Origin: Albibacterium bauzanense
GTDB lineage: Bacteria; Bacteroidota; Bacteroidia; Sphingobacteriales; Sphingobacteriaceae
Assembly (NCBI RefSeq): GCF_004339765.1
Contig: NZ_SMGO01000004.1
Coordinates: 1-32,936, forward strand
Direction of reading: 5' to 3'
Length of the DNA stretch: 32,936 bases
The notes below the pieces were generated by a model. That model was not told the DNA's origin. It saw only the letters and a list, made by a program, of their open reading frames with translations, and searched no databases. The first letter of the stretch is position 1, and each line of letters starts with the position of its first letter. This document shows positions 6,165 to 21,063 of the stretch, piece after piece. The translations under genes and the position numbers were made by a program.

Positions 6165-6198
6165 ACTATTCGAATACTATATAAAGTACTCGAATAGT
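6165..6198. terminator. Hairpin between the convergent radical SAM and ilvA genes, overlapping the ilvA stop
   Basis: ACTATTCGA (6165-6173) pairs with TCGAATAGT (6190-6198). After one mismatch the stem continues TACT/AGTA, giving 13 pairs around a 6-base loop. The ilvA stop codon (6177-6179) lies inside it. Modest T-runs follow on both strands (GTTTT on +, GTTTC on -), so it may be a weak bidirectional terminator. Confidence 0.5.
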
Positions 6199-7427
6199 GT
6201 TTTATCGTTATTGATCTCTTTAAAGTCAAAACCCTTTAGTTTCATCCGTTCAACAAGTGCCTGGTAATCTTTTGCACATTGAACTTCTATACCAACCAAA
6301 GCAGGGCCTCTTTCTCTTTGAGTTTTCTTAATAAATTCAAAACGGGTAATATCATCTGTAGGCCCCATCACTTCAGTAACAAAAAGTTTTAATGCGCCTG
6401 GTCTTTGTGGAAAATGAACTAAGAAATAATGTTTCTTTCCCTCATATTGTAAGGAAAGCTCTTTTATTTCGGCCATTCGATCGAAATCGTTATTGCCACC
6501 ACTAATAATACATACTACTTTCTTACCCTTTATTTCATCCTTAAACATGTCAAGTGAGGCAACTGTTAATGCACCTGCCGGTTCAGCAACAATAGCGTCA
6601 TTATTGTACAAGTTTAAAATGCTCGAACAAACTTTTCCTTCGGGTACCAGCTCAATCCTGCTTATATATTTTTGACATAATTCGAAGGTTAGATCACCCG
6701 CCCGTTTAACTGCTGCACCATCTACAAAGGTGATAATGTTATCAAGCGTTACTGGTTTACCAGCAGAAAATGCTGCCTTCATACAAGGCGCTCCTTCAGG
6801 CTCAACACCAAAACAGGTGACTTCCGGGCGTGCATGATTAAAATAATATCCTACTCCAGAGGCTAAACCACCACCACCAATAGGTATAATTACAACATTA
6901 ACATCCGGTAAATCCTCTAGAATTTCTACCCCTACAGTTCCCTGACCCTCAATTATTGCAGGATCATCAAAAGGAGGAACAAAGGTCATATTATGTTCCT
7001 TGGTATAAATTAAAGCTTCTCTAAGGCAATCATCAAATGTATCGCCTGTCAGAATAATTTCCACAAAAGATTCTCCAAACATACGAGTTTGGTCAATCTT
7101 TTGTTTCGGAGTATGGCTAGGCATAAATATTACACCTTTGATCTGTTGATTCTTACAAGAGAATGCAAAACCCTGAGCATGATTTCCTGCACTTGCACAC
7201 ACTACTCCATTTTTTCTTTCCTCGTCATTTAAACGAGATATTTTATTATAGGCACCTCTTAATTTATAAGATCGTACAACTTGCATATCCTCACGCTTCA
7301 GATAAATTGAAGCATTGTATTTTTTGGAAAGCCTGCTGTTATATTGAAGAGGAGTTCTATTGATTACCGATTGGATACGTTTTAAAGCAGCAACTGAATC
7401 AAGAGTTATATCCGAATGTTCGGCCAT
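6177..7427 (-). CDS. ilvA: Threonine ammonia-lyase (threonine deaminase)
   Basis: A 416-residue PLP enzyme converting threonine to 2-oxobutanoate, the entry step to isoleucine. The PLP lysine is K55 in '[10 protein letters not shown]', with the fold-type II phosphate-binding loop 'IGGGGLASG' and '[10 protein letters not shown]'. Residues from about 330 form a single ACT-like regulatory region ('[17 protein letters not shown]'). This matches the short (about 420-residue) Bacillus/Corynebacterium-type IlvA rather than the 514-residue E. coli form, which carries two such units. Its start lies 3 bases after the leuA stop, so it is the last gene of the branched-chain amino acid operon and probably translationally linked to leuA. 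Isoleucine feedback is expected from the family but not shown by sequence. Confidence 0.96.
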
Positions 7428-7430
7428 GTT

Positions 7431-8603
7431 TTATACTTTTATAGTTGTATTTTGTGCTAAATTAATTAAATCCTGATCGGTTATTTCCTTTTTACCATCG
7501 GCTAAATCAAGGAACTTAGTATATAGACTATCTAAATCACTTCGTTCTAAATTATAGCCTAAACGTTGTAGATGATATTTTATGGCGTGTCTTCCGCTTC
7601 TTGCTGTTAAGATGATGCCTGCTTCATCTAAACCCACATCTTCCGGTTTGATAATTTCATAGTTTTCACGATGCTTTAAAAAACCGTCCTGATGAATTCC
7701 TGAACTATGAGCAAATGCATTCTTTCCAACAATTGCCTTGTTAGGTTGCACAGGCATATCCATCATCATACTTACCTGGCGGCTAATAGCAGTAAACAGT
7801 TTACTATTTATGTTTGTTTTTAAGCCATCAAAACTATTATGATGAACTTGAAGAATCATGGCCACTTCTTCTAAAGAAGTGTTTCCTGCACGTTCTCCTA
7901 TTCCATTAATAGTACATTCTACTTGTCTGGCACCAGCTTTCACTCCAGCAATCGAATTCGCAGTAGCTAAGCCCATATCATTATGACAATGCACAGAAAT
8001 AATAGCATTATCAATATTCTTAACATTCTCTTTTAAGAATCTGATTTTATCAGCATATTGTTCAGGTAAACAATAGCCATTTGTGTCTGGAATATTGACT
8101 ACGGTTGCGCCGGCTGAGATAACAGCTTCGATCATTTTAGCAAGATATTCATTGTCAGCACGACCTGCATCTTCAGCATAAAATTCCACATCCTCAACAA
8201 AAGACTTGGCATATTTCACAGCAGCAACCGCGCGTTCTAAAATCTCCTCTCGTGTGCTGTTAAATTTATATTTGATATGCATATCAGAAGAACCAATTCC
8301 TGTATGAATTCTTCCTCTTTTAGCAAACTTTAATGATTCAGCTGCAACCTTAATGTCGTTTTCATTAGCCCTGGTCAAAGCACAGATAATTACATCATTT
8401 AGATTCTTAGACAGCTCAACAACACTTTGAAAGTCGCCCGGACTAGATACCGGGAAACCTGCTTCAACGATATCAACGCCCAAGCGTTCCAGTTCAATTC
8501 CAATTTCAATCTTTTCTGAAGTAGTTAATTGGCATCCTGGCACTTGCTCTCCATCCCGAAGAGTGGTGTCGAATATGTATAAATGATTTGGATCGTGTAA
8601 CAT
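7431..8603 (-). CDS. leuA: 2-isopropylmalate synthase, short form without regulatory domain
   Basis: A 390-residue enzyme of the HMGL-like/DRE-TIM family that condenses acetyl-CoA with 2-oxoisovalerate, the first committed step of leucine synthesis. Catalytic features are '[13 protein letters not shown]' (R16, D17), '[10 protein letters not shown]' with the metal-binding HxH, and '[14 protein letters not shown]'. After the barrel and the linker helices ('[16 protein letters not shown]') the protein ends near '[17 protein letters not shown]'. It lacks the roughly 110-residue C-terminal LeuA allosteric domain of the 500-residue forms. Citramalate or homocitrate synthase activity is possible for such short forms, but the position in a leu operon between leuB and ilvA favours isopropylmalate synthase. 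leuB ends 26 bases upstream. Confidence 0.9.
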
Positions 8604-8629: not shown

Positions 8630-9727
8630 TTATGAATAGACGACATTCTTTTTCTCAGCAAAAGCCTCTAAAACTTTGGCTCCCATCTCTTTCGTCCCTA
8701 AAATTAATTCAGGAGAGGTAGTGTTATCTGCTATATCCAGTGTTCTAAAACCAGCTTTCAGTGTATCAGCAACCGCTTTCGTAACAAAAGCTGCTTCCTC
8801 TTTTAGTCCAAAGCTAATTTCCAGCATCAATGCAACCGATAGGATAGAAGCCAACGGATTTGCTTTATTCTGACCTGCAATATCATGTGCAGAACCATGG
8901 ATAGGTTCAAAGAAACCAGTTCCGTCACCAATAGATGCAGAAGCCAGCATGCCCATAGAACCTGCTATCTGCGATGCCTCATCTGTAAGTATATCCCCAA
9001 ATAAATTCGCTGTAAGAACTACATCAAACTTCTTAGGATTCTTAACCAATTGCATAGCCGCATTATCAATGAACATATGTTCCGTTTCAACATCCGGATA
9101 TTGTTGAGCAATTTCTTGAACAACTTCTCTCCATAAACGCGATGTCTCTAAAACGTTTGCTTTATCTACAGAACATAAACGTTTACTTCTTCTTTGTGCA
9201 GCTTCAAATGCTTTTATTGTAATTCGTTCAATTTCATAACGATTATAATTCATGAGGTCAGAAGCAAAATTCCGATCGTTTGAACGGTGTTTCTCACCAA
9301 AATATACATCGCCTGTTAGTTCTCTGAAGAATAATATATCAGTTCCTTTCAGAATTTCCGGTTTTAAGCTTGAAGCATTCAAAAGTTCATCAAAAAGTAA
9401 GATAGGTCTTAAATTAGCATATAGGCCTAACTCTTTTCTGATTTTTAATAAACCTTGTTCTGGTCGTACTTTAGCCGATGGGTCATTATCATATTTAGCG
9501 TGTCCAATTGCACCAAACAGAATAGCATCACTTTTTCTGGCCTTTTCCAAGGTTTCATCAGGAAGCGGATTTCCAGTTGCTTCAATAGCAACATGGCCCA
9601 TAATGGCTTCATCGAATGCAAAGTCATGACCGTACTTCTCGGAGATCTTCTCTAAAACCTTTTTACCCCAGGTAGTTACCTCTTGTCCGATACCATCACC
9701 CGGAATAATTAATATATTTTTCTTCAT
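8630..9727 (-). CDS. leuB: 3-isopropylmalate dehydrogenase
   Basis: A 365-residue NAD-dependent decarboxylating dehydrogenase that converts 3-isopropylmalate toward 2-oxoisocaproate in leucine synthesis. The family marks are clear: N-terminal '[10 protein letters not shown]', the substrate arginines in '[14 protein letters not shown]', '[14 protein letters not shown]', '[18 protein letters not shown]', and the metal/NAD-binding '[27 protein letters not shown]' region with '[18 protein letters not shown]'. Length is normal for LeuB. Its ATG lies 2 bases after the stop of the upstream ABC ATPase gene, implying tight co-translation within the operon. Confidence 0.96.
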
Positions 9728-9729
9728 TT

Positions 9730-11196
9730 TTAAAAAATACTTTCTGTTAAACTTTCAATGGCTTCAACCCGGCCATTCTTTAATATAATTCTTTTTTCAA
9801 TACAAGTAGGCAACTGTGTTTCAAAATGACCTACATAAATTAATGTTTTTCCGTGAGTACAAAGCTCATCAACAATATCGTTAAAATGTTGGGTCTGTAC
9901 TGCATCTAAACCCTGACAAGGTTCATCCAGAATTAATAGTTCTGGATTCTTGATAATCGTTCTGGCTAATAAAACTAAACGCTGTTTTCCTAAAGGCAGA
10001 GTATTCAATAACTCGTATTTATATTCTTTCAGATCAAAAAACTCAAGAACCTCATCTACCTTTCTTTGCTTGTCATGAGTTAAATCATGAAATAATCCAA
10101 TACTATCATAAAAACCTGAGGCAACGCTCTGCCATACTCTAGCTGTACTATCAAAATACCAATGCAATTCAGGAGAGATAATTCCAAGATGTTCCTTGAT
10201 ATCCCAAATACTTTCACCGCTCCCTCTTTTCTTTCCAAATAGGTAGATATCACTGGTATAAGCTTGCGGATGATCACCATTGATTAAACTTAACAAGGTT
10301 GATTTCCCAGAACCATTGGGTCCTTGTAATAGCCATTTCTCACCAGCTTTTACCTCCCAGCTAACATTATGTAATACCTGCTTATCGCCGTATTTTACAT
10401 TTACATTATTCATTCTGACCATACTTTTGGCAGAAATATCAGGAGCCTGCTGAAGAAAATAGGGGAGTACCTTTTTAATCCTGGTCTCTTCTTTCGTTAT
10501 TCCTTCTTTATTATTAACAATCACTAAGCGACTGTTTTTTATTTCAGCAAACCGGTTAATACAGTCCGGTAATTCATCATCGTTGCTAATCAATATTAAA
10601 TGCAAGCCTTGACTTGTAAGATCATCAAATACCCGATTTAAATTTTTGCGCGATGCTGCGTCCAAACCAGTATAAGGTTGGTCGATAATAAGCAGTTGAG
10701 GTTTTAGCCACAGTGCTTTTATCAATTGCATCTTTTTATTCTCACCGCTCGAAAGTTCGATGAGTTGCGTATTTTTAGAATTTGAAAACCCAAATAGATC
10801 TAAATAATAGCTAACATCGTCAATATCCAACGCCTCTTCCTGAGCAAATTTCAGCAGCTCTGCATATACCGTTAATGTATCGTTTTGCTGATGCTTATTA
10901 TAACGTTGTTGATAATAGAAATTACGGTCTCCCTCAAGATTGGTAAACTGATACCAGCTTGAAACAAAAACTACTTGCTTTGGAAGCACGCTCGAAGGGT
11001 CAAAGTTAATTTCAATATCTCCTGAGCTTTTCTCTAAGCCTGCAATGGCTCTGGCCAGAGATGTTTTCCCCGAACCGCTTTTGCCGCCTAATAACCAATT
11101 TTCCCCATAAAATATTTGCCAATTCAATCCCTTTAATACCTCATTCTGTTGGTATTCCAGATTTAAATTAGTGATATTTACAAGAGGCTTCGGCAT
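9730..11196 (-). CDS. ModF-like soluble ATPase with two ABC domains
   Basis: A 488-residue protein with two nucleotide-binding domains and no membrane span. NBD1: Walker A GGKSGSGKT (37-45), signature LSSGE (148-152), Walker B LLIIDQP, with Gln at 173 where the catalytic Glu is expected and Asn at 205 in place of the switch His. NBD2: Walker A GPNGSGKST (292-300), atypical signature LPLGKQ (400-405), intact Walker B LILDEP (421-426) and switch H457. The segment 'GDHPQAYTSDIYLFGKKRGS' followed by GESIWDIK closely resembles E. coli ModF (PhrA), a protein of unclear function linked to molybdate genes. Here it sits inside the leucine operon: its ATG shares one base with the leuD stop, and leuB follows after 2 bases. 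No molybdate gene is nearby. The family assignment is firm; the function is unknown. Confidence 0.87.
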   Translation of the reverse strand: MPKPLVNITNLNLEYQQNEVLKGLNWQIFYGENWLLGGKSGSGKTSLARAIAGLEKSSGDIEINFDPSSVLPKQVVFVSSWYQFTNLEGDRNFYYQQRYNKHQQNDTLTVYAELLKFAQEEALDIDDVSYYLDLFGFSNSKNTQLIELSSGENKKMQLIKALWLKPQLLIIDQPYTGLDAASRKNLNRVFDDLTSQGLHLILISNDDELPDCINRFAEIKNSRLVIVNNKEGITKEETRIKKVLPYFLQQAPDISAKSMVRMNNVNVKYGDKQVLHNVSWEVKAGEKWLLQGPNGSGKSTLLSLINGDHPQAYTSDIYLFGKKRGSGESIWDIKEHLGIISPELHWYFDSTARVWQSVASGFYDSIGLFHDLTHDKQRKVDEVLEFFDLKEYKYELLNTLPLGKQRLVLLARTIIKNPELLILDEPCQGLDAVQTQHFNDIVDELCTHGKTLIYVGHFETQLPTCIEKRIILKNGRVEAIESLTESIF

Positions 11197-11780
11197 TATT
11201 TCGACTGTTCGTACTCTTCTATTAAGTTTTTATTGTTCAATATAAAATCGATGTCATCATAACCATTGATAAGGCACGATTTCTTATAAGGATTGATTTC
11301 AAAGCTTTCCTGATCGCCGGTTTCAGCCAATAAAACGGTTTGATTTTCCAGATCTATAACCAGCTCTGTATTCGGATTCTTAGTTACTGCTTGAAATATA
11401 ACATCTAAGAATTCATCAGAAACCTGTATAGGAAGTAAGCCATTGTTCAATGCATTTCCCTTGAAAATATCAGCAAAGAAACTACTGATCACTACATCAA
11501 AACCATAATCTTGTATAGCCCAGGCTGCATGTTCACGGCTACTGCCACAGCCAAAGTTTTTACCAGCTACCATAATTTTCCCACTATAAGTAGGATTATT
11601 CATGATAAAATCTGCTTTAGGCTGATTGTTGCTATCAAAGCGCCAATCGCGAAATAGGTTTTCACCAAACCCTTCCCGTGTAGTTGCTTTTAAGAAGCGG
11701 GCAGGAATGATTTGATCCGTATCTATATTTTCTATTGGTAGTGGAACTACCCTTGATTTTAATTTTTCAAATTTTCTCAT
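11196..11780 (-). CDS. leuD: 3-isopropylmalate dehydratase small subunit
   Basis: A 194-residue small subunit of isopropylmalate isomerase, which partners LeuC to convert 2- to 3-isopropylmalate. The swivel-domain marks are present: '[19 protein letters not shown]', the substrate-binding '[19 protein letters not shown]' and '[21 protein letters not shown]'-type sequence. Length matches bacterial LeuD (about 200). It follows leuC by 51 bases, and its TAA overlaps the ATG of the ABC ATPase gene by one base (TAATG), an arrangement that favours reinitiation. Confidence 0.96.
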
Positions 11781-11831
11781 TCGAATATCTTGTTTAATGT
11801 AAAGGTGCGATAGTGGGTATTAAAGCACCTA

Positions 11832-13229
11832 TTACAATAATTCCCTAATATCGCTAATCTTGCCAGTTACTGCAGCTGCAGCAGCCGTCAATGGGCTTAC
11901 CAACATGGTACGTGCATTGGGCCCTTGCCTACCTTCAAAGTTCCTGTTTGATGTAGATACGCAATATTTTCCAGCAGGTATTTTATCCTCGTTCATTCCC
12001 AGACAAGCACTGCAGCCCGGTTCGCGAAGTTGAAAACCTGCAGCTTCAAAGATCTTGTCTAAGCCTTCTTGTATGGCTTGTTTTTCTACTTGTTTAGATC
12101 CTGGAACAATCCATACCTCTACGTCAGAAGCTTTTTGTTTACCCTTTACAAAGCTGGCTATCTCTCGTAAATCTTCGATTCTGGAATTAGTACAGCTTCC
12201 TATGAAAACATAATCAACAGGTCTTCCTAATATTTCCTTATCATCTTCAAAGCCCATATATTCCAATGCCTTTTGATAAGAGAATTGTTCACTTTCTGGT
12301 TGAGACTTAATCGCCGGAATATGTTCTGTAATTCCCATTCCCATTCCCGGGTTCGTACCATAAGTAATCATAGGGGAAATATCTTCAGCTTTAAAGCTTA
12401 ATACTTTATCAAACTGAGCATCTGCATCGCTATAAAGGGTTTTCCAATAGGCTAATTCCTTATCCCACTCTGCGCCCTTAGGTGCAAATTCACGTCCTTT
12501 GATATAGTCGAAAGTTGTTTGATCCGGAGCAATTAAACCGCCACGAGCGCCCATTTCTATACTCATATTACAGATAGTCATACGAGCTTCCATGCTAAGC
12601 GCCTGAATGGCTGTACCAGCATATTCAATAAAATATCCCGTTCCTCCTGCTGCAGAAATCTGCGCAATAATATAAAGAATAATATCTTTTGCTCCTACAC
12701 CTTTACCTAAGGTACCATTTACTTCTATTTTCATGGTCTTGGGTTTCTGCTGCAATAAGCACTGTGTAGCAAAAACCTGTTCTACTTGCGAGGTTCCGAT
12801 ACCAAATGCGATAGCGCCAAAGGCACCGTGAGTAGAAGTATGGCTATCTCCACATACCATTGTTTTACCGGGCAAAGTTATGCCAAGCTCGGGGCCAATA
12901 ACATGAACAATACCTTGATAAGGATGACCTAAACCATAAAGCTCGATACCGAACTCAGCACAATTTTTGGTCAGCATATCTACCTGATATCTTGATAATT
13001 CTTCTTTAATAGGTAAATGTTGATTGAGGGTAGGAACGTTGTGATCGGCCGTCGCAACAGTTTGTTTTGGGCGAAATACGGGAATCCCTCTTTTACGCAA
13101 TCCGTCAAATGCTTGAGGTGAAGTAACCTCGTGGATTAAATGTGTGTCAATATATAGAATATCCGGAAAACTCTCTTCGCGCTTGACGACGTGCGCGTCC
13201 CATATTTTTTCTACTAATGTTCTCGACAT
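11832..13229 (-). CDS. leuC: 3-isopropylmalate dehydratase large subunit
   Basis: A 465-residue aconitase-family catalytic subunit that binds a 4Fe-4S cluster. The cluster cysteines appear in '[14 protein letters not shown]' and '[13 protein letters not shown]'. Other signatures are '[20 protein letters not shown]', 'QTFDYI' and the C-terminal '[13 protein letters not shown]'. Length equals the usual LeuC (about 466). It acts with LeuD, encoded immediately downstream. The gene follows a long inverted repeat that separates it from ilvC, so the leu half of the operon may be expressed at a different level from the ilv half. Confidence 0.97.
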
Positions 13230-13246
13230 ATTTTTAATATTTTAAA

Positions 13247-13294
13247 AGGCTGTATAAAGAAGCGCCTATGCAAAGCATATACTTTATACAGCCT
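13247..13294 (-). terminator. Long hairpin between ilvC and leuC (possible attenuator, terminator or processing site)
   Basis: AGGCTGTATAAAG (13247-13259) and CTTTATACAGCCT (13282-13294) are perfect 13-base complementary arms. The 22-base interior holds a second small stem, TATGC/GCATA, with a 3-base AAA loop (TTT on the transcribed strand). On the transcribed strand the hairpin follows the ilvC stop by 14 bases and is followed by TTTAAAATATT, a weak U-tract, before leuC starts at 13229. The stem is certain from sequence; whether it terminates, attenuates or stabilises mRNA is not. Confidence 0.55.
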
Positions 13295-13308
13295 CTTATA
13301 TTTCTTAT

Positions 13309-14790
13309 TTAAACTGTTTTAATTGTTTTCATCGCGGTCATTGCTTTTCTTAATACACTGCCTACTTTTTCAACAGGGTGGGTACGAATAGCATCGTTAA
13401 CAGCTATCAAAGTTTTGTTATCAACAGCTCCGTCTTTACCATCATTGTAATTCTTACCAATGATATCAGTATCTACAGTCTTCATGAAATTCGCCAATAA
13501 TGGTTTACAAGCATGATCGAATAAATAACATCCGTACTCTGCTGTATCAGAAATTACACGATTCATTTCAAATAATTTCTTACGGGCAATCGTGTTTGCA
13601 ATTAATGGAGTTTCATGTAGAGACTCATAATAAGCTGATTCAGGTTTAATGCCTGCCTCAACCATGGTTTCGAAAGCTAATTCAACACCTGCTTTAATGT
13701 AAGCAACCATGAATAAAGCATTATCAAAATATTCTTGATCTCCGATTTTTACATCTCCGGCTGGAGTCTTTTCGAAAGCAGTTTCACCTGTTTCAGCTCT
13801 CCATGTCAATAAGTTTTTATCATTATTAGCCCAGTCTTCCATCATAACGCGGCTAAATTCGCCACTCATAATATCATCTTGATGTTTTTGGAATAAAGGA
13901 CGCATAATTGTCTTTAATTCATCCGCAACTTCAAAGGCTTTTATTTTAGCTACATTGCTCAATCTGTCCATCATAGCAGTAATACCACCTTGCTTTAAAG
14001 CTTCTGTGATAACTTCTACACCATACTGAACTAATTTAGAAGCATAACCCGGATCAATTCCCTTTTCTACCATTTTATCAAAAGATAAAATAGATCCGGT
14101 TTGTAAAAGACCACAAAGGATGGTTTGCTCACCCATTAAGTCAGATTTAACTTCTGCTACAAAAGATGATCTTAAAACACCGGCTTTATGTCCGCCTGTT
14201 CCTACACAGTAAGCTTTGGCTTCTACAAGACCTTTTCCTTGAGGGTCATTCTCAGGGTGTACAGCAATTAAAGTAGGTACACCAAAACCACGTAAATATT
14301 CAGCTCTTACTTCACTACCCGGGCATTTTGGAGCAACCATAATAACTGTTAAGTCTTTACGGATTTCCATGCCTTCTTCAACTATATTAAAACCATGAGA
14401 GTAAGAAAGAGTTGCTCCTTGTTTCATCAAAGGCATAATTGCTTTTATTACTGAAGTATGTTGCTTATCCGGTGTTAGGTTAATAACTAAATCAGCGTTT
14501 GGAATAAGCTCTTCATAAGTACCAACTTTAAAGTTGTTATCGGTAGCATTTTTCCATGAATCTCTTTTTTGTTCAATTGCTTCCTTGCGTAAAGTATAAG
14601 AAACATCTAAACCGCTATCTCTAAGGTTCAATCCTTGGTTTAATCCTTGAGCACCGCAACCTACAACCACAATCTTTTTTCCTTTTAAGGCATTTACACC
14701 GTCTGCAAATTCCGTACGGTCCATAAATTCTGCAACGCCTAATTGGTTTAATTTTTCTCTAAGTGGTAATGTGTTAAAATAATTTGCCAT
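13309..14790 (-). CDS. ilvC: Ketol-acid reductoisomerase (class II, long form)
   Basis: A 493-residue NADPH- and Mg-dependent enzyme that isomerises and reduces acetolactate and acetohydroxybutyrate in valine, leucine and isoleucine synthesis. The Rossmann loop reads '[20 protein letters not shown]', followed by basic residues for NADPH. Catalytic segments include '[19 protein letters not shown]', '[12 protein letters not shown]' and '[18 protein letters not shown]'. The length is that of class II KARI as in E. coli (491), with the duplicated knotted C-terminal domain, rather than the roughly 330-residue class I form. ilvN lies 110 bases upstream and leuC 79 bases downstream, beyond a hairpin. 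Confidence 0.97.
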
Positions 14791-14900: not shown

Positions 14901-15488
14901 TTACATCGTGAAAATCTTATCCTGTTTATCCAGGAATTCATTTTCAACCATTTCAGAAACCTCTTCGTTCTCAAACTCTTTTAGCTTCTTATGGAAACCT
15001 TCACTGGCTTTGATAATAGCAATTCTTCCGCTGCGTACAAACTCTATTAAGCCAAATTTTCCTAAAGCCTTAGTCAGACCATTAATTTCTTCACTATGTC
15101 CAGAGGTCTCAAAGATAGTATAGTCATTTCTAATAACCACAGCTCTGGCACCATATTGTCTTAATAGGCGCTCTACACTTGCTCGCTCTGCAATTTCAGA
15201 AGTAGGGACTTTGAAAAGTGCCTGTTCTTGCCAAACTATTTCTTCATTGGTGTTATAATAAGCTTTTAATATATCCACCTGCTTTTCAAGTTGGCGACAA
15301 ACCTTTCTTACCACTTCTTCACTTTCGTTAATGACAAGTGTGAAGCGAAAGATGCCACTTACCTCAGACGGAGAGCCAGTAACACTTTCAATATTAATTT
15401 TCTTACGAGAAAACTGGATGGCGATCCTTCCGATGATGCCAACTTTGTTTTCTGTATATATCGTTAATGTAAATTCCTTCTTTAACAT
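14901..15488 (-). CDS. ilvN: Acetolactate synthase small (regulatory) subunit
   Basis: A 195-residue regulatory subunit of acetohydroxyacid synthase. The N-terminal ACT domain begins 'FTLTIYTENKVGIIGRIAIQ' and carries the expected 'INIESVTGSPSEVSGIFRFT'. A second ACT-like unit follows from about residue 80 ('RASVERLLRQYGARAVVIRN', 'TSGHSEEINGL'). It is somewhat longer than E. coli IlvH (163), with an acidic C-terminal tail ('KKLKEFENEEVSEMVENEF'). ACT dimers of this kind bind valine and confer feedback inhibition on IlvB. Its start lies 11 bases after the ilvB stop. The symbol ilvH would serve equally well. Confidence 0.94.
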   Translation of the reverse strand: MLKKEFTLTIYTENKVGIIGRIAIQFSRKKINIESVTGSPSEVSGIFRFTLVINESEEVVRKVCRQLEKQVDILKAYYNTNEEIVWQEQALFKVPTSEIAERASVERLLRQYGARAVVIRNDYTIFETSGHSEEINGLTKALGKFGLIEFVRSGRIAIIKASEGFHKKLKEFENEEVSEMVENEFLDKQDKIFTM

Positions 15489-15499
15489 CTTCCAATGAT

Positions 15500-17251
15500 T
15501 TATTTTAACCTGATTTCTGAAACACTACTACCTTGAGCCACCATTGGGAAAACATTGTTTTCCTTTCCTACCATTACTTCTAATAGGTAAGAACCATCGT
15601 GGTCAAGCATGGTTTTCAACGCGCTCTTCAGTTGAGAACGCTCACTGATTCTTTGTCCATCAATGTAATAACCCTTGGCCACCGCAACGAAATCCGGACT
15701 GGTAATGTTTACGAAAGAATAGCGTTTGTCATTAAATAACTGCTGCCACTGACGAACCATTCCTAGAAACTCATTGTTTAAAATCAATATTTTAACCTTT
15801 GCACCAAACTGCATAATGGTACCCATTTCTTGCAAAGTCATTTGAAAGCCACCATCGCCGATTATTGCAACAACCGTACGTTCAGGTGCTCCATACCAGG
15901 CACCAATTGCTGCCGGCAAACCAAATCCCATGGTTCCCAATCCACCTGAAGTAACATTACTTTTCGACTGATTGAATTTTGCATACCTGCAAGCCACCAT
16001 TTGATGCTGACCAACATCAGTTACAATAACAGCATCACCTCCGGTTAATTCATTTAAGGTCTTAATAACTTCGCCCATTGTCATGGTATCCGTCGAAGGG
16101 TTCAGCTCTTCATTAATAACCTCTTTAATCTCCTCCTTCTCTAATTCACGGAATTTATTAAGCCATTCTGTATGCGTTTTCTTCTCAACTAATTCCGTTA
16201 ATAAAGGTAAGGTTTCTTTACAGTCTCCCCAAACCGGAACGTCTGCTTTAACGTTTTTATCAATCTCCGCAGGGTCAACATCCATGTGGATGATCTTTGC
16301 CTGCTTCGCATATTTATCTAAACGGCCGGTAACCCGATCATCGAAACGCATTCCGATAGCAATTAATACATCGCAATCATTCGTCATTACGTTAGGAGCA
16401 TAGTTACCATGCATCCCTAACATTCCTACATTAAGAGGATGGTCAGTATTTAAAGCACTTAAACCCATTACGGTCCATGCTGACGGAATGCCTGTTTTCT
16501 CTATAAAGGCTTGAAATTCTTTCTCTGCTTTACCCAAAATAACCCCTTGTCCAAAAAGGATGAAAGGTCTTTTTGCTTTGTTTATTAAATCAGCAGCTTG
16601 TTTAATATATTCAGTTCTAACAACTGGTCTCGGGCGATAGCTCCGGATATGATGACAAGGTTTGTAGCCTAAGTAATCAAACAGTTGTATTTGAGCATTT
16701 TTAGTAATATCAATCAATACCGGACCCGGGCGACCTGAGCGGGCAATGTAAAATGCCTTTGCAAGCATCTCAGGAATTTCCGTAGCATCCGTTATCTGGT
16801 AATTCCATTTAGTAACAGGGGTTGTAATATTGATTACATCCGTTTCCTGAAAAGCATCTGTTCCCAATAAATGAGCAAATACCTGACCAGTTATACAAAC
16901 TATCGGATTGCTGTCAATCATTGCATCCGCTAAACCGGTTACCAGGTTGGTAGCTCCCGGACCGCTGGTTGCAAAAACAACACCTGCTCGTCCCGATGTA
17001 CGAGCATAGCCTTGAGCAGCATGAATTCCACCTTGCTCATGACGTACTAGTATGTGCTTTAATTTATCATTATAATCATATAAAGCATCGTATATGGGCA
17101 TAATGGCACCACCAGGATAACCGAAGACTGTATCAACGTTTTCTGCTAATAAAGCCTCTAATACTGCTTGTGATCCAGATAACTGAGTCTTAACAGCAGT
17201 CTCTTCAACAGTTCCTATGTTGCCTTCTTTATTTGTTTCTACCGTATTCAT
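15500..17251 (-). CDS. ilvB: Acetolactate synthase large (catalytic) subunit
   Basis: A 583-residue thiamine-diphosphate enzyme that condenses two pyruvates, or pyruvate and 2-oxobutanoate. It has the three-domain layout of the family: an N-terminal pyrimidine-binding domain ('FGYPGGAIMPIYDAL', then the catalytic Glu in 'VRHEQGGIHAAQGYAR'), a central FAD-type domain ('FGQGVILG', 'GMLGMHGNYAPN'), and a C-terminal ThDP-binding domain with the 'GDGGFQMTLQEM' to 'ILNNEFLGMVRQWQ' metal motif. The first 25 or so residues precede the conserved core and are variable. ilvD lies 29 bases upstream and ilvN 11 bases downstream. Valine sensitivity is expected through IlvN. Confidence 0.97.
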   Translation of the reverse strand: MNTVETNKEGNIGTVEETAVKTQLSGSQAVLEALLAENVDTVFGYPGGAIMPIYDALYDYNDKLKHILVRHEQGGIHAAQGYARTSGRAGVVFATSGPGATNLVTGLADAMIDSNPIVCITGQVFAHLLGTDAFQETDVINITTPVTKWNYQITDATEIPEMLAKAFYIARSGRPGPVLIDITKNAQIQLFDYLGYKPCHHIRSYRPRPVVRTEYIKQAADLINKAKRPFILFGQGVILGKAEKEFQAFIEKTGIPSAWTVMGLSALNTDHPLNVGMLGMHGNYAPNVMTNDCDVLIAIGMRFDDRVTGRLDKYAKQAKIIHMDVDPAEIDKNVKADVPVWGDCKETLPLLTELVEKKTHTEWLNKFRELEKEEIKEVINEELNPSTDTMTMGEVIKTLNELTGGDAVIVTDVGQHQMVACRYAKFNQSKSNVTSGGLGTMGFGLPAAIGAWYGAPERTVVAIIGDGGFQMTLQEMGTIMQFGAKVKILILNNEFLGMVRQWQQLFNDKRYSFVNITSPDFVAVAKGYYIDGQRISERSQLKSALKTMLDHDGSYLLEVMVGKENNVFPMVAQGSSVSEIRLK

Positions 17252-17280: not shown

Positions 17281-18960
17281 CTATTCATCCGTAACGCAGC
17301 CTTTGCTGGCATCTTGCACACTCTTATGATATTTGTAAAGAGCTCCTTTAGTAACAGGGACGGGAGGTTGTTTCCAGTTTCTTTTACGTTCTTGAAGTTC
17401 TTCATCACTTATTAAAACATTAATTTCATTTTTAGTGGCATCAATCCGAATGATATCATTTTCTTTAATTAATGCGATGTTCCCACCTTCCCATGCTTCC
17501 GGAGTAACGTGGCCTACAACAAAACCATGTGTACCACCAGAAAAACGACCGTCAGTAACCATCGCAACCGAAGCACCCAAGCCTGCACCAAAAATAGCAG
17601 AGGTAGGTTTCAGCATCTCAGGCATTCCAGGAGCTCCTTTTGGTCCAACGTGACGGATAATAACCACATCACCTGCATGAACCTTGCCTGATGAAATTCC
17701 ATCAATCAGATCATACTCACCTTCAAATACGCGAGCCGGGCCTTCAAATTGTTCACCCTCTTTACCGCTTATTTTTGCTACTGACCCTTTCTCTGCAATA
17801 TTTCCATATAAAATCTGAAGGTGACCTGTTTCCTTAATAGGTCTTTCAATAGGTACGATAATATCTTGCTCTTCAAAATTTAAATCCTGAGCATCTGCTA
17901 AGTTTTCAGCTATGGTCTTTCCAGTAACAGTTAAACAGTGACCGTGGATCATTCCCTTTTTTAATAAGTATTTCATAACAGCAGGTACACCGCCAATGTT
18001 ATGAAGATCTTCCATTAGGTATTTTCCACTTGGCTTCAAATCTGCAAGTACAGGTGTAATATCACTTACCTTTTGGAAAGTATCAGGTGTAATCTCAACG
18101 CCTATAGCTCTTCCTATTGCAATAAAATGTAATACAGCATTGGTTGATCCTCCTAAAACCATTAAGGTTACAATAGCATTGTGAAATGCATCGGCCGTCA
18201 TAATATCAGAAGGTAAAATATTTTTCTCAAGCAGATTTCTAATGGCTTTTCCTGCATCAGCACATTCTTGTTCTTTTTCCCTGCTTAAAGCTGGGTTTGA
18301 AGAGCTATAAGGAAGACTCATACCCAATGCTTCAATTGCCGATGACATGGTATTTGCAGTATACATACCACCACAGGCGCCTGCACTCGGACAAGCATGA
18401 CGGATAATGCCTTGGAAATCTTCTTCATTTAAAGTTCCTGCTATTTTTTGGCCCAGAGCCTCAAAAGCAGAAATAATATTTAAATCTTTGCCTTGGTATC
18501 TTCCCGGGTGAATACTTCCACCATAAAGCATAATAGAAGGACGATTTAACCGTGCCATGGCAATTATTGAGCCCGGCATATTTTTATCACAACCAGGAAC
18601 AGTAATAAGTCCGTCATAATATTGGCAACCCATTACTGTTTCAATTGAATCTGCAATGATATCACGGCTAGCTAATGAATAGCGCATGCCGGGTGTTCCA
18701 TTAGACATACCATCACTCACACCAATGGTGTTAAATACCAAACCTACCATATCTTCTTCCCAGACAGACTTTTTGACAAGTGCGGCTAAGCCATTTAAGT
18801 GCATGTTACAAGTGTTACCATCGTAACCCATGCTAGCTATACCCACTTGTGCTTTATTCATATCTTCAGGTGTGAAGCCAACTCCATAAAGCATCGCCTG
18901 CGCAGCTGGTTGCGTAGGATCTTGCGTCAATATTTTACTGTATTTGTTTAATTCAGACAT
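17281..18960 (-). CDS. ilvD: Dihydroxy-acid dehydratase
   Basis: A 559-residue Fe-S enzyme converting dihydroxyisovalerate and dihydroxymethylvalerate to the 2-oxoacids. Cluster cysteines are visible in '[11 protein letters not shown]', '[11 protein letters not shown]' and '[15 protein letters not shown]'. Other marks are '[10 protein letters not shown]', '[11 protein letters not shown]' and 'TDGRFSGG'. I chose the ATG at 18960 (protein begins [11 protein letters not shown]), which matches the usual N-terminus of the family. The frame is open 14 codons further to 19002, but that would start at TTG and add an unconserved basic peptide. This is the first gene of the ten-gene operon; a candidate promoter lies about 110 bases upstream. 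Confidence 0.95.
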
Positions 18961-19065
18961 GTTTATTTTATAATAGACCGTGATGTATTTTTCCGATTTC
19001 AATTTACACCCTTAGTTTATATTCATCAAGGAAATGTGTAAATAAATAAATTTAGAATTAAATTC

Positions 19066-19542: not shown

Positions 19543-21063
<1,521 letters not shown>

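Follow-up and report, generated by a model that had tools for sequence, protein, structure and literature searches.

A ModF-like twin-NBD ABC ATPase encoded within the branched-chain amino acid operon of one Bacteroidota clade

RESULTS

The window, a 32,936-nucleotide stretch of the Albibacterium bauzanense genome, carries on its minus strand a run of branched-chain amino acid (BCAA) genes in the order ilvD, ilvB, ilvN, ilvC, leuC, leuD, ABC, leuB, leuA, and ilvA. The ABC open reading frame (ORF; positions 9730-11196, ATG start) encodes a protein of 488 residues, two stretches of which match PF00005 (ABC_tran). Among curated families it scores best with ModF (NF008186), but its 328.4 bits fall short of the cut-off of 459; within that limit, the ModF-like affinity proposed in an earlier sequence-only reading of this DNA was borne out. 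That reading had also described a tight fit to the neighboring genes, and this was confirmed on the minus strand: the start ATG at 11196 and the leuD stop overlap by one base (TAATG), and 2 bases separate the ABC stop from leuB. The genes of the operon are as follows.

17281-19002, minus strand: ilvD, in the upstream part of the operon
15500-17251, minus strand: ilvB, in the upstream part of the operon
14901-15488, minus strand: ilvN, in the upstream part of the operon
13309..14790, minus strand: ilvC, long class, 493 residues, with two KARI_C stretches
11832..13229, minus strand: leuC, by family matches
11196..11780, minus strand: leuD, overlapping the ABC start by one base
9730..11196, minus strand: twin-NBD ModF-like ABC ATPase, 488 residues (ORF, PF00005, NF008186, AF2 model)
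8630..9727, minus strand: leuB, 2 bases downstream of the ABC gene
7431..8603, minus strand: leuA, by family matches
6177..7427, minus strand: ilvA, by family matches

The companions of the ABC gene in this operon are all BCAA enzyme subunits, and no membrane protein is encoded within the ilv/leu run. The ABC protein itself has no hydrophobic segment (maximum 19-residue hydropathy, 0.93). No Rfam family reached threshold anywhere in the window. An ATP synthase alpha/beta-type gene (19543-21048) lies upstream of ilvD and is kept beside the operon in many relatives. An anti-phage role was considered and rejected, as PADLOC matched ATPase components only (best, mad3, at 1.7e-32) and Pfam scans of the window found no other defense gene.

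Next, the genomic context of relatives was examined on gene maps built from mechanical ORFs, in a neighbor survey that covered the Bacteroidota. Among 151 genomes of the window's family, 119 had a relative at E ≤ 1e-60, one apiece, and two groups were plain: 64 genes at 47 to 67% identity to the window's protein (not counting the window's own gene) and 55 at 36 to 48%. Every gene of the first group lay within 5.6 kb of ilvC (64/64), and none of the second lay within 10 kb of it (0/55). BCAA genes were present in all 21 first-group loci of 15 to 20 kb (L038 and L058 to L077) and in none of the 19 second-group loci inspected. We refer to the two groups as the operon form and the other form.

A relative was counted as operon-borne if a BCAA gene of at least 45% identity lay on the same strand within 3.5 kb. 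By this test, 65 of the best 80 named loci of at least 587 confirmed relatives, a selection that favors the window's clade, were operon-borne (47 from Sphingobacteriaceae, 10 from Chitinophagaceae, 3 from Weeksellaceae, and 5 unplaced, by hand tally). An evenly sampled draw of 296 genomes from the phylum gave 37 genomes with a relative at E ≤ 1e-45. Thirty of these lay outside the window's family, and only 1 of the 20 examined among them (L106) was operon-borne; thus, the operon link is a trait of one clade and not of ModF-like proteins at large. More distant relatives occupied mixed genomic places, whereas within the clade neither random placement nor an association with mod genes was found. 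No common partner of the non-operon form was evident from the first 40 residues of 29 close codirectional ORFs at 53 loci. At one such locus, in Niastella (L207, 3496-9162), the neighborhood includes a DUF1835 gene and genes of topoisomerase IV type, and ORFs of similar length occur at these positions in several other Chitinophagaceae loci.

The 142 candidates for a quick LG+G4 tree were Escherichia coli ModF and 141 loci, the window among them; 11 near-copies (at least 92% identical) and one short row were left out, and the resulting tree of 130 rows has 39 open forks and carries a long-branch warning. One clade of 73 distinct rows (SH-aLRT, 99) was operon-borne throughout (73/73), five more operon rows (from Sediminibacterium and uncultured organisms) stood apart from it, and two changes of the operon label were needed on the tree. 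The location with BCAA genes, which the sequence-only reading had described for this one operon, is therefore a clade-wide trait that extends over three named families. Seven relatives outside the operon (L118, L119, and L121 to L125) have short open frames of 412 to 435 residues and form a deep group of their own.

The genes that flank the ABC gene have been rearranged repeatedly. At least 10 changes of flanking genes were counted among the operon rows, 7 of them forced by starred branches (74 of 78 operon rows were labeled, and four with no clear label were left out). The architectures of 88 operon loci were leuD>ABC>leuB (58 loci), ilvC>ABC>leuA (17 loci), ilvC followed by ilvA (5 loci, including L106 and L194, in which other ORFs lie between ABC and ilvA), and others (8 loci). 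In Chitinophaga silvisoli (L187), ilvC was the sole BCAA companion within seven ORFs on either side, with no ilvD seen nearby, and leuCD was absent beside the ABC gene in L199, L200, and three Weeksellaceae loci. No single BCAA enzyme is a constant neighbor of the ABC gene, and coupling to LeuCD alone is refuted by the operons with no leuCD beside it. Some of these rearrangements would be expected to have parted a chance passenger from the pathway, and no row of the 73-row clade was found away from the BCAA genes, which disfavors chance linkage. Since the ABC gene has stayed in the BCAA operon through repeated rearrangements, its product probably serves the BCAA pathway rather than a transporter.

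The strongest rival to a role in the pathway is a general one, in which the protein does housekeeping work that has nothing to do with BCAA, the operon and non-operon forms can substitute for one another, and the operon is a convenient home, suitably expressed and itself mobile as an exchanged block. We consider this a serious possibility, although an unlikely one. Several observations fit it. The two forms are mutually exclusive, with no overlap at E ≤ 1e-60 in the 151 genomes (64 with the operon form and 55 with the other form), and the loci of the other form have no single common context. In a congener of the window's species (G017), the operon is flanked by the same outer genes as in the window (L135) and has a short-class ilvC and no ABC gene; the ABC form of this genome lies elsewhere (L052), adjoining a gene that reads from sequence as a MATE exporter. 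The window's genome keeps this MATE-type gene (78% identity) and its other-side neighbors, with no ABC form beside them; a search of the same genome for the gene that flanks the congener's ABC form on its far side, run without a positive control, gave no hit. Because sister species combine an ABC-less BCAA operon with a diverged form that stands in for the operon form, the function may not be pathway specific, and a general role is kept among the readings.

The composition of the operon itself also bears on this alternative. Percent identities of the window's genes to the congener (L135) and to Sphingobacterium faecium (L146), respectively, were 84 and 89 for leuB, 72 and 84 for leuD, 81 and 91 for leuC, and 28 and 86 for ilvC, against 81 and 69 for ilvN, 88 and 85 for ilvB, 87 and 71 for ilvD, 87 and 82 for leuA, and 81 and 65 for ilvA. 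The operon is therefore a mosaic in which the ilvC-leuC-leuD-ABC-leuB segment (8630-14790) is closest to Sphingobacterium or Rhinopithecimicrobium and the remaining genes (ilvN, ilvB, ilvD, leuA, and ilvA) are closest to the congener, with its short-class ilvC and no ABC gene. As judged from these identities, the split pattern fits an exchange of ilvC-leuC-leuD-ABC-leuB as one block, in either direction. Such an exchange can be argued either way: the ABC gene is part of the block, yet the two forms appear to replace each other. What tells against a mere passenger is that the gene has remained beside BCAA genes through at least seven rearrangements, which chance linkage does not predict, that ilvC and the ABC gene stay paired in L187 with no other BCAA gene nearby, and that all 73 rows of the clade are operon-borne.

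The class of ilvC largely follows the form of the ABC gene, as 63 of the 64 family genomes with the operon form have the long class and 51 of the 55 with the other form have the short class. A strict coupling to long-class ilvC was rejected, since the short class occurs in G049 (L038), in Pedobacter duraquae (L196), and in 6 of 10 Chitinophagaceae operon loci. Of 71 family genomes with a long-class ilvC of known position, 8 lacked the operon form. Three of their loci are long-class ilvC operons with no ABC gene, in genomes that have no form at E ≤ 1e-60: L126 (from ilvD to a second leuA-like gene), L127 (from ilvB to leuD), and L129 (from ilvD to leuC, at a contig end); tblastn found no ABC remnant in these three. 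Four more (L131 to L134) have a long-class ilvC with no adjacent ABC gene and a diverged form elsewhere in the genome, and L128 is too short to judge. Given these seven loci, and the failure to detect any form in the genomes of three, the ABC gene is dispensable for the operon. In L126 (9692-11174) and L127 (2882-4329), ilvC aligns in two pieces near the N terminus, possibly reflecting a frame break or an assembly error.

Either form of the ABC gene was present in 119 of 132 KARI-positive family genomes and in 0 of 19 KARI-negative ones (G009, which has KARI with no recorded position, is among the 132 and outside the positional counts). In the wider draw, genomes of the same class had a relative in 37 of 63 KARI-positive and 0 of 10 KARI-negative cases (hand comparison), genomes outside the class had none, and KARI was present in all 37 relative-bearing genomes (hand check). 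Across the phylum draw, KARI was present in 215 genomes, of which only 37 had a relative at E ≤ 1e-45. KARI-less genomes are often small (no more than 2.4 Mb in 16 of the 19 from the family), so that the co-occurrence may reflect genome reduction, and we give it little weight.

To characterize the ATPase sites, residues were counted in the alignment of 130 rows, with the 73 rows of the operon clade (window included) taken as a set. The motifs are as follows.

11053..11097, minus strand: NBD1 Walker A region, residues 34-48, GKSGSGKTS; K44 in 73/73 clade rows
10729..10767, minus strand: NBD1 signature region, residues 144-156, LSSGE, completing composite site 2; S149, G151, and E152 in 73/73
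10678..10680, minus strand: codon 173, Gln replacing the catalytic Glu of NBD1 Walker B; Q46 E16 N4 L3 S2 T1 K1 in 73 rows
10582..10584, minus strand: codon 205, Asn at the NBD1 switch-His position, placed by phmmer opposite the His of YheS; N63 D5 S3 G2 in 73 rows
10291..10329, minus strand: NBD2 Walker A region, residues 290-302, GPNGSGKST; K298 in 73/73
10168..10173, minus strand: codons 342-343, Pro-Glu at the Q-loop position of NBD2 (phmmer); P342 and E343 in 73/73
9982..9999, minus strand: NBD2 signature LPLGKQ, residues 400-405, completing composite site 1; G403 in 69/73 and Q405 in 73/73
9826..9927, minus strand: NBD2 Walker B (D424 and E425) to switch H457; D424 and E425 in 73/73 and H457 in 72/73

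The residues singled out by the sequence-only reading were all found as it had given them in the translation and alignment: Q173 (within LLIIDQP), N205 (within ISNDD), the L400-P-L-G-K-Q405 signature, and an intact NBD2 Walker B (E425) with H457. Composite site 2 is nearly invariant in the clade (K298, D424, E425, S149, G151, and E152 in every row; H457 in all but one). In site 1, K44 and D172 are kept in 73/73 rows and the catalytic Glu is gone in most; Glu at position 173 is not conserved among close homologs, and the presence of Gln in 46 of 73 rows rules out a sequencing error or a private change. Column 205 is never His in the clade, although one row has His in the adjacent column, and a His anywhere in residues 202-208 was found in 11 of 122 rows (5 in the clade and 6 others). 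The NBD2 signature is LPLGK-like across the clade. By sequence, then, this is an asymmetric ABC ATPase with one canonical and one degenerate composite site.

The asymmetry is wider than the clade, because the rows outside mostly have N173 (28 of 44 full-length rows outside the operon groups) and E. coli ModF also lacks the switch His; as read from the alignment, the wider group pairs a degenerate site 1 with a canonical site 2, and the exact letters drift. The retention of K44 and Asp172 in all 73 rows suggests that site 1 still binds nucleotide, presumably without hydrolyzing it. The earlier statement that one site is ATPase-dead thus holds as far as the degeneracy of site 1 goes; loss of hydrolysis is something we infer for site 1 only, since residue 173 varies (Glu in 16 of 73 rows) and the missing His is common to E. 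coli ModF.

Site 2 departs from a transporter ATPase at one position. Pro342 aligns by phmmer with a Gln of ABCB1 that we take to be the Q-loop Gln, and Pro is present in 73/73 clade rows and 43 of 44 outside rows, so that the Q-loop Gln of canonical transporters is absent from the catalytic NBD. This is one reason why we consider it improbable that the protein is the ATPase subunit of a transporter, for example of BCAA or keto acids; the window's ilv/leu run also lacks a membrane protein, although such a transporter would have its membrane part encoded at another locus. A transporter would account for the generic ABC_tran domains and for the best single-NBD structural relatives, 2ihy (Staphylococcus aureus) and 4hzi (Leptospira), which are the closest solved relatives by sequence, match NBD2 (E values of 1.8e-34 and 4.5e-29), and are described as putative or orphan ABC transporter ATPase subunits; both differ from the window's protein in having a single NBD.

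An AF2 model of the protein, made with 44 rows, had a pLDDT of 88.6 and a pTM of 0.85. Its inter-NBD linker (residues 228-257) is about 30 residues long, with a single 4-residue helix (246-249). The best structure matches were twin-NBD proteins; matches by TMq included apo-state ABCB1 (0.75), the A2 ATPase (8s7v_K; 0.72), ATP-bound DppABCD (0.71), ribosome-bound EttA (0.69), and the free EttA crystal (0.36); Z scores were 30.9 for VgaA-LC, 30.4 for EttA, 28.9 for ABCB1, and 28.5 for A2. An assembled NBD pair is suggested by the model, in a state that the matches do not fix, and the fold does not pick a function, because many matches are tied.

The sequence-only reading had suggested a translation-type ATPase, and an ABC-F-type ribosome factor that tunes translation to BCAA supply was weighed on that basis. 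ABC-F proteins (EttA, VgaA, and VmlR) also have two NBDs per chain and head the structure list, but exporters of unrelated role score almost equally, and NF000355 matches 34 of 44 relatives at E ≤ 1e-40 where AztA (43) and FtsE (37) match more. ABC-F proteins have a long two-helix linker between the NBDs, and both of their sites are usually canonical. The linker of the window's protein is short, which speaks against ABC-F, and its site 1 is degenerate; the suggestion found no support beyond generic ABC-F similarity, and we regard such a role as quite improbable.

E. coli ModF (b0760, NF008186) resembles the window's protein in its twin NBDs, its length of about 490 residues, a collinear full-length alignment, the missing NBD1 switch His, and a GDHPQ...RGSGE.IWDIK stretch common to NBD2 of both. 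ModF differs in that its NBD1 Walker B retains Glu and its NBD2 has LSWGQ, and its gene lies with modE and near modABC whereas the window's gene lies in a BCAA operon. That the protein is a true ModF serving molybdate metabolism is hardly credible: NF008186 is the best curated model at 328 bits but falls under its 459-bit cut-off, and the molybdate role was rejected when a search of the 141 loci (ORFs of at least 70 residues) with E. coli ModA, ModB, and ModE gave no hit at 1e-3 (sole control, E. coli against itself).

DISCUSSION

The two-NBD anatomy, the near-invariant site 2, the degenerate site 1, the Pro at the NBD2 Q-loop, and the retained operon link are all read directly from sequence. 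The reading that we favor, tentatively, is that this soluble ABC ATPase, with its two asymmetric NBDs and its lasting place in the BCAA operon of one Bacteroidota clade, remodels or activates a BCAA enzyme or complex. The protein would work as an ATP-driven clamp in which nucleotide held at site 1 would form a structural latch and site 2 would cycle. The cycle would remodel or activate a BCAA biosynthetic enzyme or complex, in the manner of A2 (below), and would move no membrane substrate. A BCAA enzyme is favored as the client because the operon companions are all BCAA enzyme subunits and because A2 offers a precedent. IlvD and LeuCD carry Fe-S, and these Fe-S dehydratases and the ketol-acid reductoisomerase IlvC would be the first candidates.

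Dual ABC ATPases that work on enzymes form the precedent for the favored reading, and carbon-phosphorus lyase is reportedly remodeled by one of them, in one study. A2 belongs to the methyl-coenzyme M reductase (MCR) activation complex; PMC12176620 describes A2 as a dual ABC ATPase and the activation of the enzyme by the complex as ATP-dependent. Like A2, the window's protein has a twin-NBD fold with no membrane part in both the AF2 model and the sequence. The analogy has its limits: identity is 14 to 16%, A2 acts on MCR and has a Zn loop (PMC12176620), and the fold match is tied with many twin-NBD chains and exceeded by ABC-F chains and some exporters.

A bolder form of the favored reading is that BCAA synthesis in these Bacteroidota uses a dedicated ATP-driven remodeling or activating ATPase that acts on IlvD, LeuCD, IlvC, or IlvBN; this we regard as doubtful. 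To our knowledge, such a component of the pathway is known from no model organism. If the ATPase does act on a BCAA enzyme, the classical pathway has an unrecognized ATP-dependent component, and a BCAA client would be the first tested role for the ModF-like family. If there is no such client, the mutual exclusion of the operon and non-operon forms still lends itself to a clean complementation test.

The protein family and the type of site asymmetry are known; that a ModF-like twin ATPase belongs to the BCAA operon throughout a clade appears, judging from the open-access literature, to be new. A clade with all sampled members beside BCAA genes gives the ModF-like family a concrete, testable pathway. 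The yeast (Saccharomyces cerevisiae) YDR061W group, which we presume to be homologous to ModF, offers a further likeness. Its members are soluble two-NBD fungal ABC proteins of obscure role, according to excerpts of PMC4692070 and PMC6071951; the appearance of YDR061W as entry 621 of a long Nfs1 pull-down list (excerpt of PMC5675994) was given no weight. E. coli ModF is labeled a molybdenum transport protein in an excerpt of PMC555942. In the open-access literature, including the available parts of PMC555942 and PMC3149613, we found no tested function for ModF-like twin ATPases, and we found no open-access report of a ModF-like or other ABC gene linked to BCAA operons.

The operons of relatives also carry genes that are absent from the window. 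In several operons of Pedobacter and Chitinophagaceae, leuC and leuD are separated by a methyltransferase-domain gene of about 253 residues (for example, L158, 8435-9196, and L203, 8638-9396; PF08241 was tested in L158 only). A DinB-like gene of about 158 residues lies between ilvN and ilvC in L146 (4755-5231; PF12867, tested in L146), and ORFs of similar length occur between ilvN and ilvC in many relatives. Some operons have, alongside the same ABC gene, a diverged leuC-leuD-leuB set and a second leuA-like gene (29%); in L061 (2943-7756), the set is 51 to 64% identical to the window's.
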